64,000 nt of DNA from Rhodobacterales bacterium HKCCE4037. GTDB taxonomy: Bacteria; Pseudomonadota; Alphaproteobacteria; Rhodobacterales; Rhodobacteraceae. Below the pieces are notes generated by a model, which was not told where the DNA came from, searched no databases, and was given only the letters and a program-made list of their open reading frames with translations. Below, piece by piece: positions 14,553 through 27,908 of this stretch. Both the position numbers and the translations under genes were made by a program. The number at the start of each line of letters is the position of its first letter. Positions within the stretch are counted from its first letter, which is position 1. The stretch lies in the NCBI GenBank assembly GCA_015689645.1, contig WVSM01000002.1, positions 372,001 to 436,000 on the forward strand, written 5' to 3'.

Positions 14553-15010
14553 TTGGGTGCCCTCTCTCTGGCCAGACCTACCTGTATGGTTCAGACCGAG
14601 TGTTAGTGCATGACCGAACCTTGGTCCATCAACGGCACGCGGTCCGCTGCCGGTTTGCGTCCGTCAACACGAGTTGATCTGCCACGGTGGTTACCCGTGT
14701 GCGCGGATCGCTTCAACTCTCATCCAGGGAACAGGGCTGCGTTCATCGGGGACAGACCTTCGTTCAGCTGCCCTGCGAGCACATGCTCCGTGTCGAACAG
14801 TCCGACATAGCCGCGTTGGCCACACATCGCGGTGAAAATCCCGAAAACCCCTTTGAAAAAAGGAAATCGAAGGGAAACCGTCAATCGAACCGGTCGACGA
14901 CCCGTCGTCGCAAGTTCGATCACTTCCGATCCGAAAAGGGGGTTTCAAGCCTGAGGAAACCACGTTTCCTTTCAAGCTCTTACGAGGATTATAACGGGTC
15001 GAATAAAAAG
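14553..15010. other. Gene-poor stretch between the ThDP gene and tRNA-Thr
   Basis: About 460 bp with short open frames on both strands, none with a convincing RBS or family resemblance. The right half is richer in A/T than its surroundings and contains an exact 7-3-7 inverted repeat, AGGAAAC-CAC-GTTTCCT (14954-14970). A T-run on the minus strand directly after the tRNA (15004-15010) could end its transcript. No integrase, attachment-site duplicate or IS is visible. Confidence 0.5.
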
Positions 15011-24956: not shown

Positions 24957-25721
24957 TCATTCGGAAATGACGTGGTCACCTTCCAGGGCTTCAAGCGCGC
25001 TTTCGTCGATCTCCGGCATCGCTTCCAGCTCTTCCTCGGTATAGCCGCGGACGACCAGCATCTCGGGTTCGCCGTTGTCGTCCATCGTCAGCGTGTACTC
25101 GCTGAGCGGCAGGGCCACGGTGTACTCACCAAGGCCAAGCAGGCCGCCGATGCCGATGACGGCCTCATAGCCGGACGCGCCTTGGATCACGTAGTCGATT
25201 TCGCCGACGTCGTTGTTCAGCTCGTTATGAACGTCGAGGCCAACGATATCGGCAACGGTCATGCCGACAAACGCGGAGATGTCGTTCTCCATGCCCATGT
25301 CGCCGTCCATGTCGGTTTCCGCCATGGCACCGTCAGTTTCGGTCTCCATGTCCGTTTCCATGTCGGTCTCGGCCATGTCGCCTTCGTCGGTCTCCATGTC
25401 CGTTTCCATATCGGTCTCAGCCATGGCACCGTCGTCGGTCTCCATATCGGTCCCGGCTTCGGCGTCGGCGGTCATCTCGTCTTCGCCGTCCATGTCGGTC
25501 TCGCCCATGTCCTCGGCCATATCGGCGGCGGTGCCTTCGGTGGCGAGGTCGGCGTCGGCTGCGGCGTCACCTTCGGCTTCGCAACCCTCGGGCAGCGGCG
25601 TGCCTTCTTCGACGGCACAATCGAGGTCGGCCGTCACTTCGGCGTCGGTTTCCTGGGCGAATGCGGGGCCCGACAGGATCAGGGCGGCGGCAGACGTCAT
25701 GAGGATGTTTTTCAGGGTCAT
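24957..25721 (-). CDS. Secreted PRC-barrel protein with acidic Met/Glu/Thr/Asp repeats
   Basis: 254 residues from ATG 25721 (GGAGG upstream). A signal peptide ends near AFA-QE (residue 22), followed by one Cys-containing segment and then about 100 extremely acidic residues built from short units such as MAETDMETDMETDE. The PRC-barrel domain (about 150-225: ISAFVGMTVADIVGLDVHN and VALPLSEYTL) follows. PRC-barrel proteins of this type are periplasmic and often stress-induced; a consensus EcfG promoter lies 52-77 bp upstream. The acidic repeat could bind cations. Exact role unknown. Confidence 0.8.
   Translation of the reverse strand: MTLKNILMTSAAALILSGPAFAQETDAEVTADLDCAVEEGTPLPEGCEAEGDAAADADLATEGTAADMAEDMGETDMDGEDEMTADAEAGTDMETDDGAMAETDMETDMETDEGDMAETDMETDMETETDGAMAETDMDGDMGMENDISAFVGMTVADIVGLDVHNELNNDVGEIDYVIQGASGYEAVIGIGGLLGLGEYTVALPLSEYTLTMDDNGEPEMLVVRGYTEEELEAMPEIDESALEALEGDHVISE
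25305..25455. repeat. Intragenic tandem repeat encoding the acidic ETDM units
   Basis: On the plus strand, words like CCATGTCGGT, TCCATGTCCGTTTCCAT and GGTCTC...GCCATG recur six to eight times with small changes. The repeat preserves the reading frame of the PRC-barrel gene; copy number may vary between strains. Confidence 0.65.
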
Positions 25722-25772
25722 CTCAAATTCCTCCATAAGGTCGATGAATATTTCGTCATCGGATGCAGAGAG

Positions 25773-25798
25773 AACGACCATGCAGCGCCACAGGTTCC
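25773..25798 (-). promoter_or_regulatory. EcfG-type general stress promoter (PRC-barrel gene)
   Basis: On the minus strand GGAAC-N17-CGTT, an exact match to the alphaproteobacterial EcfG/general stress response consensus. Transcription would start near 25766, giving a leader of about 45 bases to ATG 25721. Confidence 0.75.
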
Positions 25799-26233
25799 CC
25801 GGCGGATTCAATTAATTTTGGGAAAACAGGGGCTTATTGGACTCTATAGAACGCGCGCGCGAAAACGCATGGCAGCGCGAACGGTTCCCTGCCCCTCGCA
25901 TTTCGGCGGGTCTTCGCCCTTTCCGGGGCGGCCGCCGGCAGCTTCACGCCAATGGTCAAAAAGCGGCCGGATTTGACCCTTCCCAATAGCCCACTGTCGA
26001 ATTTTTCGAACCGTTAACCGGATCGTAACCCCGCCACAGGACAAACTCCCCGATGCATCACTCGCGGGACACCCGGAAACGGGGTCTCGACACCGACGAC
26101 GGTTTGTCGATCCGGCTGAAGACAGCCCCCTCATCGGGCCAAGGTCAGGTCGAACGGACGCGCATATTCCGCCCCGCCATCAACGGGGATCAGACCGCCG
26201 CACCTGCGCGGCGCCGCGTATCTTATTCGCATA

Positions 26234-26340
26234 CCGGAAAACCGCGTTTTCCGGGCGGATTTCCGCGAAATCCCGGCGCAAACGACAGCAGTCGTGCCCA
26301 AGGAAAACGCGGTTTTCCCTACGGATTTCGCGGAAATCCG
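26234..26340. repeat. Cluster of five short hairpins (paired palindromic units)
   Basis: Units in order: A, GGAAAAC-CGC-GTTTTCC (26236-26252, stem extends to 9 bp); B, GGATTTC-CGC-GAAATCC (26257-26273); E, ACGAC-AGCA-GTCGT (26282-26295); C, GGAAAAC-GCG-GTTTTCC (26302-26318); D, GGATTTC-GCG-GAAATCC (26323-26339). C is the exact reverse complement of A, and D that of B. It lies beyond the ahcY terminator. Confidence 0.85.
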
Positions 26341-26370
26341 GCTCCCTCCCGAGACGCTGCGCAAACGCAA

Positions 26371-26394
26371 ATGGCCGCCCAAGCGGACGGCCAT
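26371..26394 (-). terminator. Probable ahcY terminator
   Basis: ATGGCCGYCC pairs with its complement over 10 bp (one mismatch) around a 4-base loop, 22 bases after the ahcY stop. The minus strand then reads TTTGCGTTTG, a moderate T-rich tail. Confidence 0.55.
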
Positions 26395-26416
26395 CGCGAA
26401 GGCATGTCTGCCCCGC

Positions 26417-27802
26417 TCAATACCGGTAGTGCTCGGGCTTGAACGGGCCGTCCTGCGGCACGCCGATGTAGTCCGCCTGTTCCTTGTTCAGCTCGGTCAG
26501 CTTCACGCCGATCTTCGCCAAGTGCAGGCGCGCGACCTTCTCGTCCAGCTTCTTGGGCAGGATGTAGACCTGGTTCTGGTATTCGTCACCGCGCTGCCAC
26601 AGCTCCATCTGCGCCAGCACCTGGTTGGTGAACGACGCGCTCATCACGAAGGACGGGTGGCCGGTCGCATTGCCGAGGTTCAGAAGGCGACCTTCGGACA
26701 GCAGGATCAGACGGTTGCCCGAGGGCATCTCGATCATGTCCACCTGTTCCTTGATGTTGGTCCACTTGTGGTTGCGCAGCGCCGCGACCTGGATCTCGTT
26801 GTCGAAGTGGCCGATGTTGCCGACAATCGCCATGTCCTTCATCTCGCGCATGTGCTCGATGCGGATCACGTCCCTGTTGCCGGTGGTGGTGATAAAGATA
26901 TCGGCGTCCGCCACGACGTCTTCCAGCAGCACCACCTCGTAGCCGTCCATCGCCGCCTGCAGGGCGCAGATCGGGTCGGCCTCGGTCACCTTCACGCGGG
27001 CGCCCGCACCGCGCAGGCTCGCGGCAGAGCCCTTGCCCACGTCCCCGTAGCCCATCACCACGGCGACCTTGCCTGCCATCATCGTGTCGGTGGCGCGGCG
27101 GATACCGTCGACCAGCGATTCCTTGCAACCGTACTTGTTGTCGAACTTCGACTTGGTGACGCTGTCGTTCACGTTGATCGCGGGGAAGGGCAGCTGGCCC
27201 TTCTTCTGCAGGTCATAGAGGCGATGCACGCCGGTGGTGGTTTCCTCCGACACGCCGACGATCTGGTCGCGCATCTTGGTGAACCAGCCGGGCGAGGCTT
27301 CCATGCGCTTCTTGATCTGCGCCTTGATGACTTCTTCTTCCTCGCTTTGCGGGACGGGAATGATCTCTTCCCCCGCTTCCGCCCGCGCACCCAGCAGCAC
27401 GTAAAGCGTCGCGTCGCCGCCATCGTCGAGGATCAGGTTCGGGCCGTCCGGGAACTGGAACGACGCATCGAGGTAATCCCAATGCTCCTCCAGCGACTGG
27501 CCCTTCACCGCGAAAACCGGAATGCCCGCCTTGGCGATCGCCGCCGCCGCGTGATCCTGGGTGGAGAAGATGTTGCACGAGGCCCAACGCACGTCCGCCC
27601 CAAGCTCCACCAGCGTTTCGATCAGGACGGCGGTCTGGATCGTCATGTGCAGGGAGCCGACGATCCGCGCGCCATTCAGCGGCTTCTCAGCGCCGTATTC
27701 CTCGCGCAGGGCCATCAGGCCCGGCATTTCGGTTTCGGCGATGTCGAGTTCCTTGCGGCCATACTCGGCCAGCGCGATGTCCTTGACGATGTAATCACTC
27801 AT
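26417..27802 (-). CDS. ahcY: S-adenosyl-L-homocysteine hydrolase
   Basis: 461 residues from ATG 27802 ([15 protein letters not shown]), preceded by GGAGG; the frame is open 17 codons further but without RBS. Hallmarks: [46 protein letters not shown] with the catalytic Lys/Asp, the NAD-binding [15 protein letters not shown], and the C-terminal KPEHYRY. It splits SAH into adenosine and homocysteine, relieving methyltransferase inhibition. The long insert (about 150-190) is typical of the bacterial form. I looked for an SAH riboswitch in the leader and did not recognise one. Confidence 0.96.
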
Positions 27803-27908
27803 ATGTCCTGCCTCCTGCGGGCCGCGTCCAATTCGGAAAGTTGGCGTCGCCATACCAGCCCGATCTTATCTGGGCAATGCGACCCGATTATGCGTGGTGA
27901 AAGCAATG

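Follow-up and report, generated by a model that had tools for sequence, protein, structure and literature searches.

Published REPs are numerous intergenic palindromes located behind gene ends; those between convergent genes lie mostly less than 20 bp from both ORFs, and heterodimers belong to their description (PMC3733652). Their usual number is given as more than 100 per genome (PMC2817692). REPINs and RAYTs (PMC2817692, PMC3116915) have palindromic units round a spacer and are apparently non-autonomous and lineage-specific, while MITEPye1 of Paracoccus yeei, a member of the same order as the organism studied here, is a short non-coding intergenic element that can be folded (PMC11578231). 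Repeated intergenic stem-loops which possibly act as RNA were collected as 92 families in 40 bacterial genomes (PMC2267715), and intrinsic terminators with compensatory evolution carry stems compensated on both sides at gene ends (PMC5381666).

The hairpin array described below is similar to REP/BIME elements in its placement and in its heterodimer and spacer habits (PMC3733652). It shares the features listed above with REPINs, with MITEPye1, with the intrinsic terminators and with the 92 stem-loop families, the latter set beside it by description only. A literature text search with four of the palindrome sequences gave no match among the papers covered, and no words beginning with 'Rhodobacter' occur in the main texts of PMC3733652 and PMC12306157.

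Layout of the array behind ahcY

In the window (the whole stretch of 64,000 nucleotides that was analysed), direct reading revealed the order A-B-spacer-A'-B' at positions 26236-26339, which confirmed the original prediction of two palindromes followed by their exact reverse complements in the same order. Palindromes A (GGAAAACCGCGTTTTCC, 26236-26252) and B (GGATTTCCGCGAAATCC, 26257-26273) have the loop CGC, and A' (GGAAAACGCGGTTTTCC, 26302-26318) and B' (GGATTTCGCGGAAATCC, 26323-26339) have the loop GCG. Complementarity is 100% over 17 nt for A and A', and 100% over 18 nt, including one flanking base, for B and B'. The corresponding hairpins, to which no strand was assigned, are H1 (A, CGC loop, 26234-26254) with a 9-bp stem including flanking CC/GG, H2 (B, CGC loop, 26257-26273) with a 7-bp stem, H3 (A', GCG loop, 26302-26318) with a 7-bp stem and H4 (B', GCG loop, 26322-26340) with an 8-bp stem. 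The 28-nt spacer (26274-26301) contains a small ACGAC/GTCGT hairpin at 26282-26295, which had been counted as the fifth of five hairpins. Because this central hairpin sits in a spacer that is not conserved between copies, the shared unit consists of the four hairpins common to them, and not of five.

The neighbouring gene at 26417-27853 (minus strand) is presumably ahcY, a name taken from the first reading of the sequence; its 3' end points at the array from a distance of 76 bp, and every one of 13 genomes compared within the genus gave one strong match to it. Outside the array and behind this gene, a GC-rich inverted repeat (26371-26394, no strand assigned) is 90% complementary and terminator-like by eye. 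It fits the ahcY terminator that had been placed between gene and array, but it was not called in a consensus terminator scan of 25700-26500, where the sole call was another hairpin (26205-26220), no more than shuffled sequences yield. No Rfam match was obtained for the same region at E up to 1.

Two other features of the window were recorded. A single hairpin (AGGAAACCACGTTTCCT, 14954-14970), similar to H1 in style, is situated near a putative tRNA, and the minus strand at 24957-25811 encodes a protein in which D, E, T and M occur in runs (AETDMETDMETDE...). No Pfam match was found for this protein, and its NCBIfam matches were weak and of low complexity only.

Copies, placement and empty sites

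The pattern GGAWWWCSSSGWWWTCC, with up to two mismatches, was found at five places in the window against a mean of 1.13 in shuffled sequences; four of the five were exact, and all four lie inside the array. With up to one mismatch, 48 places were found in the source genome (G000) in the forward reading, compared to one for the reversed control. The array pattern is thus far above chance, in agreement with the earlier impression that the arrangement is not random. Of 29 exact places in the genome, 28 group into ten clusters and one is a lone stray (C23:248842). These ten clusters, which include the window copy (L024), and a further copy detected by covariance model at C1:433973 (L066) give at least 11 copies of what is called class I below, a lower bound since no more than 150 of the 5205 first-look candidates from this genome were scored in the model search. 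The further copies in the genome for which a search had been suggested were therefore found, and the units are not absent elsewhere in it. L023, which has other hairpins, L067-L072, L075 and the remaining arrays outside class I are excluded from the 11-copy counts, L066 is included in the placement counts and left out of the 10-copy pair counts, and model matches without an intact array (L073, L074, L076, L079) were dropped.

Flanking genes were called by script and verified with Pfam. Convergent junctions hold six of the 11 copies (L016, L017, L021, L022, L025, L026), at distances that range, on either side, from 9 bp within the gene to 17 bp beyond its stop codon. The other five (L018, L019, L020, the window copy and L066) are at co-directional junctions, 257, 103, 11, 76 and 6 bp, respectively, downstream of the nearer gene end, and no copy is at a divergent junction. 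In this count L018 is co-directional and L021 convergent, since Pfam identified the right neighbour of L018 as a transporter gene on the plus strand (the gene caller had this copy convergent) and that of L021 as an M20 peptidase gene on the minus strand (plus strand in the gene caller). The binomial probability of six or more convergent copies was 0.006 by the intergenic base pairs of a 400-kb stretch and 0.011 by junction number, and that of zero divergent copies was 0.02, under a null that rests on a gene caller wrong at two flanks and in which the misassigned L018 junction and the arrays' own base pairs are still counted. No transposase was present among 20 flanking proteins scanned. No regular target-site duplication was seen in the 11 flanks; the longest common words were 4-8 nt at irregular positions.

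Comparison with other genomes of the genus (among them G002, G004, G008, G009 and G012) showed that most sister species carry no array at the same junctions. The array behind ahcY is found in the source genome alone among 13 genomes; GC-rich hairpins with T after them occur at this place in several relatives, and the neighbouring genes differ among species. At the junction of two aminotransferase genes, compared in G000, G004, G009 and G012, the array is present in the source genome, the convergent genes meet without a gap in G009 and G012, and G004 has a short gap. The RlmH/ABC-2 junction holds an array in the source genome and 3 bp between the stop codons in G002 and G012, while G009 carries a two-hairpin relative of the array. 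The 260 nt behind rlmH are free of arrays in the other eleven genomes, with a seemingly different neighbour in G004. At the inositol-phosphatase junction, with a class I array in the source genome, different and partly decayed hairpins were found in G009 and G012, and no array in the other ten genomes. Within 200 nt behind the M20 peptidase, A/B hairpins are again confined to the source genome among the 13; the MATE partner gene is present in 9 of the 13, the gap in G012 is about 15 bp, and another hairpin with a GATTTCC arm occurs in G002 and G009. At the LysR/ABC junction the species compared, G009, has two hairpins of a broader type. Because the same junctions are empty in sister species, with 0-3 bp in two cases, the class I copies are insertions, and these data show that class I arrays were inserted at gene ends.

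Related arrays of the source genome differ from class I in loops and order. Class II arrays have a central GC hairpin (L068 and L069, partial in L070, L071 and L075), and three-hairpin arrays are located at C1:26692, 263286 and 323001. A contiguous 400-kb stretch of C1 contained 10 array pieces at seven loci against 0-2 in five Markov shuffles, showing that arrays exceed chance in this stretch. In 400-kb stretches elsewhere, five pieces (one of the A/B type) were counted in G009 and one each in G012 and G004, with 0-1 in shuffles. The stretches of G000, G009 and G004 were placed at known arrays and that of G012 contains none of its known A hairpins, and since they are not random, these counts give no genome-wide estimate.

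Arrays or hairpins of yet other kinds were also observed. In a member of the genus without A hairpins, L208 6000-6091 (G004:C2:3665999-3666091) holds an array of four hairpins whose stems, GGGCTTTCGAAAGCCC among them, are unrelated to those above; the gene caller places it inside a gene. At L197 9392-9443 (G000:C1:349392-349443), two strong hairpins with a common TTCGTACGAA sit between the genes of an Rrf2 regulator and a class-V aminotransferase, an iscR-iscS-like pair.

A check of the Rhodobacteraceae had been proposed with the original prediction. With up to three mismatches allowed, the 38-mer covering H3-H4 was found neither in the genus outside the source genome (12 genomes) nor in 197 further genera of the family, and a looser pattern of A plus half of B was absent from 119 other genera. 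Of the two findings named beforehand as speaking against the prediction, absence from the rest of the genome thus does not hold, whereas absence from relatives does for this 38-mer. Looser relatives do, however, occur in sister species: A hairpins with a 2-6-nt loop numbered 29 in G000, seven in G009, four in G002 and two in G012, and zero in the other nine genomes, and the reversed control pattern occurred once, in G008. A pattern scan of the genome collection returned 34 stretches, of which 17 were inspected; the titles of the other 17 name further bacterial groups. Hairpins of the A type and of the B type occur together in ten of the inspected stretches (L106, L108, L116, L119, L125, L126, L127, L128, L136, L138) and do not in the other seven (L112, L115, L117, L120, L123, L135, L139). 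The pairs belong to HLUCCO18 (four), Leisingera (two), Nioella, Rhodophyticola, a Roseicyclus record and a record titled Maritalea mobilis. According to a gene caller trained on G000, four are convergent, five co-directional and one (Nioella, L126) inside a gene; the Roseicyclus pair (L128), whose neighbours lie at distances of 1119 and 108 bp, is thus not tight to a gene end. Plasmid and phage collections gave no match to the array, and one single hairpin without partner in viral contigs was taken as chance.

Conservation of local pairing

Pairs were counted per copy in an alignment of ten class I copies. In the four local hairpins, all 300 base-pair cells are paired and none is broken; both sides were changed in 16 cells, and G-U was found in one. 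None of 500 shuffles reached any of five covariation measures, and pairing fell to 19-68% when the partners were shifted by 1-3 columns. In the H1 helix, five of eight pairs show changes on both sides among the copies, and pairing is kept at an arm identity of 75.8%. H3 is identical in all ten aligned copies and is changed on both sides in the eleventh, L066. Nine hairpins have both-side changes, four of them in runs of 2-3 adjacent changes; some of the changes are possibly common by descent, as those of H4 in L025 and L026.

The loops are CGC in H1 and H2 or GCG in H3 and H4 in 38 of the 40 hairpins of the ten copies, the exceptions being CAC in H1 of L020 and CGA in H2 of L022. In L066 the loops of H1 and H2 differ, H3 and H4 carry paired changes and the spacer is 16 nt long; with this copy included, the count is 40 of 44 hairpins in 11 copies. 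The spacer measures 28-31 nt in eight of the ten aligned copies, L018 (44 nt) and L022 (1 nt) being the exceptions, with a pairwise identity of 41.5% over alignment columns. Since its alignment score (-1.9) is above that of shuffled spacers (mean -3.9, maximum -2.8), a weak resemblance remains; apart from this, the spacer is kept in length and near-random in sequence.

Long-range pairing of A with A' and B with B' was considered as a conserved fold and rejected by the counts, although it is part of the minimum-energy fold: 90.0% of its cells are paired, both-side changes are absent, and it does no better than shuffles. RNA folding of the window copy gave z values of -5.58 (plus strand) and -4.02 (minus strand), with none of 200 shuffles as good on either strand, and a fold with a long H2:H4 stem is preferred to one in which every hairpin is local (-58.5 versus -33.6 kcal/mol). 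As the copies do not maintain the long-range pairing, it is the local hairpins that persist, and the alignment shows them to be preserved through paired changes. The hairpin folding of its strands is the probable reason why the array is retained. Beyond either array end, at most three T were found in 10 nt in the 11 copies, and neither strand has a T-tract.

Relation to REP systems and proposed role

The suggestion that the array is a REP/BIME element is partly supported, and right in kind: its dispersed intergenic copies lie behind 3' ends, often convergent ones, and contain paired palindromes round a variable spacer. It can be called REP-like and not a proven REP, as the tags are missing, the palindrome of the RAYT in the genome differs, and only 11 class I copies were found, so that class I alone falls short of the usual REP number (PMC2817692). 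Neither GTAG nor CGTC was present in any of the 11 copies, within the outer 8 nt and 6 flanking nt at either end; of their complements, CTAC and GACG were each seen in one copy of 11. Array stems start with G-C pairs, whereas those of CGTC REPs start with A-T pairs (PMC3733652). The array further differs from REP/BIME elements in its tandem A-B units with 4 nt between 7-bp stems, its two halves with complementary loops and its one G-T pair in 300 cells. Its order is A-B-A'-B' and not the A-B-B'-A' of REPINs, in addition to the lack of maintained long-range pairing. MITEPye1, an IS1182-related element of 159 bp, is described with 18-bp terminal inverted repeats and 4-bp direct repeats, neither of which is shown by the arrays (PMC11578231).

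A search for a REP-associated transposase, also proposed earlier, was successful in part. One RAYT was found in the source genome (NF047646, E 1.5e-54; L035 1357-1833, minus strand, around G000:C11:14147-14395). Its two flanks carry inverted GGTGCACATTCATTGTGCACC palindromes (GGTGCAC), accompanied by GTAG at one flank and by GTAA at the opposite one, and a further copy of GGTGCACATTCATTGTGCACC is located at G000:C1:3334. This is a REP/RAYT system of known kind, but its palindromes are unlike the array, and the 20 scanned proteins flanking the arrays include no transposase. In G002, G009 and G012, all of which have A hairpins, nothing matched PF01797 at E 0.001; this is weak evidence, since the RAYT of G000 itself scored only 7.5e-4, below the Pfam cut-off, and the search is near its sensitivity limit. 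That the array is a RAYT-mobilised REPIN of the known GTAG class, for which the mere presence of a RAYT in the genome speaks, is therefore very improbable. The mismatch with the RAYT does not bear on the CGTC class, as CGTC REPs are described as having no known dedicated transposase (PMC3733652). In summary, the placement, spacer and dimer habits of the array match those of published REPs, and the tag and the transposase do not.

Beside the insertion, placement and pairing observed in the copies, we infer a function for the array. With a probability of roughly 50%, it is a short, dispersed, non-coding REP/BIME-like element that gives both converging transcripts hairpin-rich 3' ends. The element would be copied by some process. 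As either strand entering the array meets two CGC-loop hairpins first, it would work alike in both directions, and the hairpin block at the 3' ends of both converging transcripts could hinder 3'-exonucleases and read-through. The alternation of A and B stems might prevent pairing between adjacent hairpins, and a stem order that is not mirrored would avoid one long palindrome; Di Nocera and colleagues propose that REP heterodimers may be shielded from SbcCD-type removal (PMC3733652). Against a role at 3' ends, none of the copies is followed by a T-tract, most sister species lack the array at the corresponding junctions, L066 departs in its loops, paired changes can also arise by template switching (PMC8794818), and the window copy prefers the H2:H4 stem in its fold and lies beyond the separate GC-rich inverted repeat of ahcY, so that ahcY transcripts may not reach it.

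The same insertions, with their empty sites in sister species, could also be those of a selfish miniature element without host function, spread by a hairpin-recognising mechanism and persisting only behind gene ends, where it would be harmless, as in convergent gaps; this is possible, though we hold it for somewhat doubtful. Its symmetry would come from a mobilising enzyme or from template switching, by which paired changes can arise and which predicts adjacent runs as found in four of nine changed hairpins (PMC8794818). The single G-U in 300 cells is likewise unlike selection on one-strand RNA, where G-U is the most frequent intermediate (PMC5381666). However, the kept loops (38 of 40) and the kept length of a spacer free in sequence point to more than symmetry repair, and the absence of a transposase among the 20 flanking proteins also speaks against it. 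An array of DNA sites for a nucleoid or supercoiling protein at supercoil-prone gene ends, as proposed for BIMEs, would account for the regular tandem palindromes and the kept spacing, and the near-absence of G-U is consistent with constraint at the DNA level; it is unlikely, as a duplex-binding protein would not explain the variation of the H1 stem with pairing kept. The related earlier idea of a multi-site binding array meets the same point, paired stem changes fitting structure better than a fixed duplex sequence. A canonical bidirectional intrinsic terminator, suggested by hairpins in convergent gaps of a few bp, can hardly be upheld given the missing T-tracts in all 11 copies, the scan result for 25700-26500 and the GC-rich hairpins followed by T which several relatives carry behind ahcY instead. 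The terminators with compensatory evolution (PMC5381666) differ from the array in these T-tracts, in its several stems per element and in its near-lack of G-U.

A two-way 3'-end structure acting on RNA is thus favoured, although the scarce G-U and the adjacent paired runs also fit a process at the DNA level. More speculatively, and improbable as a whole, the arrays could form a class of mobile hairpin arrays that needs no RAYT and has relatives in several genera near Roseicyclus, Leisingera and Nioella; it would insert where convergent stop codons leave the smallest gaps and insulate in both directions, the mirrored CGC/GCG loops and unmirrored stem order letting both strands fold locally and never as one long palindrome.

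The results point to REP-like arrays that carry no tag and have no matching RAYT, in a bacterial group for which the matches listed in literature searches contain no description of REP-like arrays. They pose the question of how perfect hairpins persist through paired changes with almost no G-U intermediate. Together with the empty sites of the sister species, the arrays offer a clean case for asking if repeats of the REP-like kind act as two-way structures at 3' ends or are passengers.
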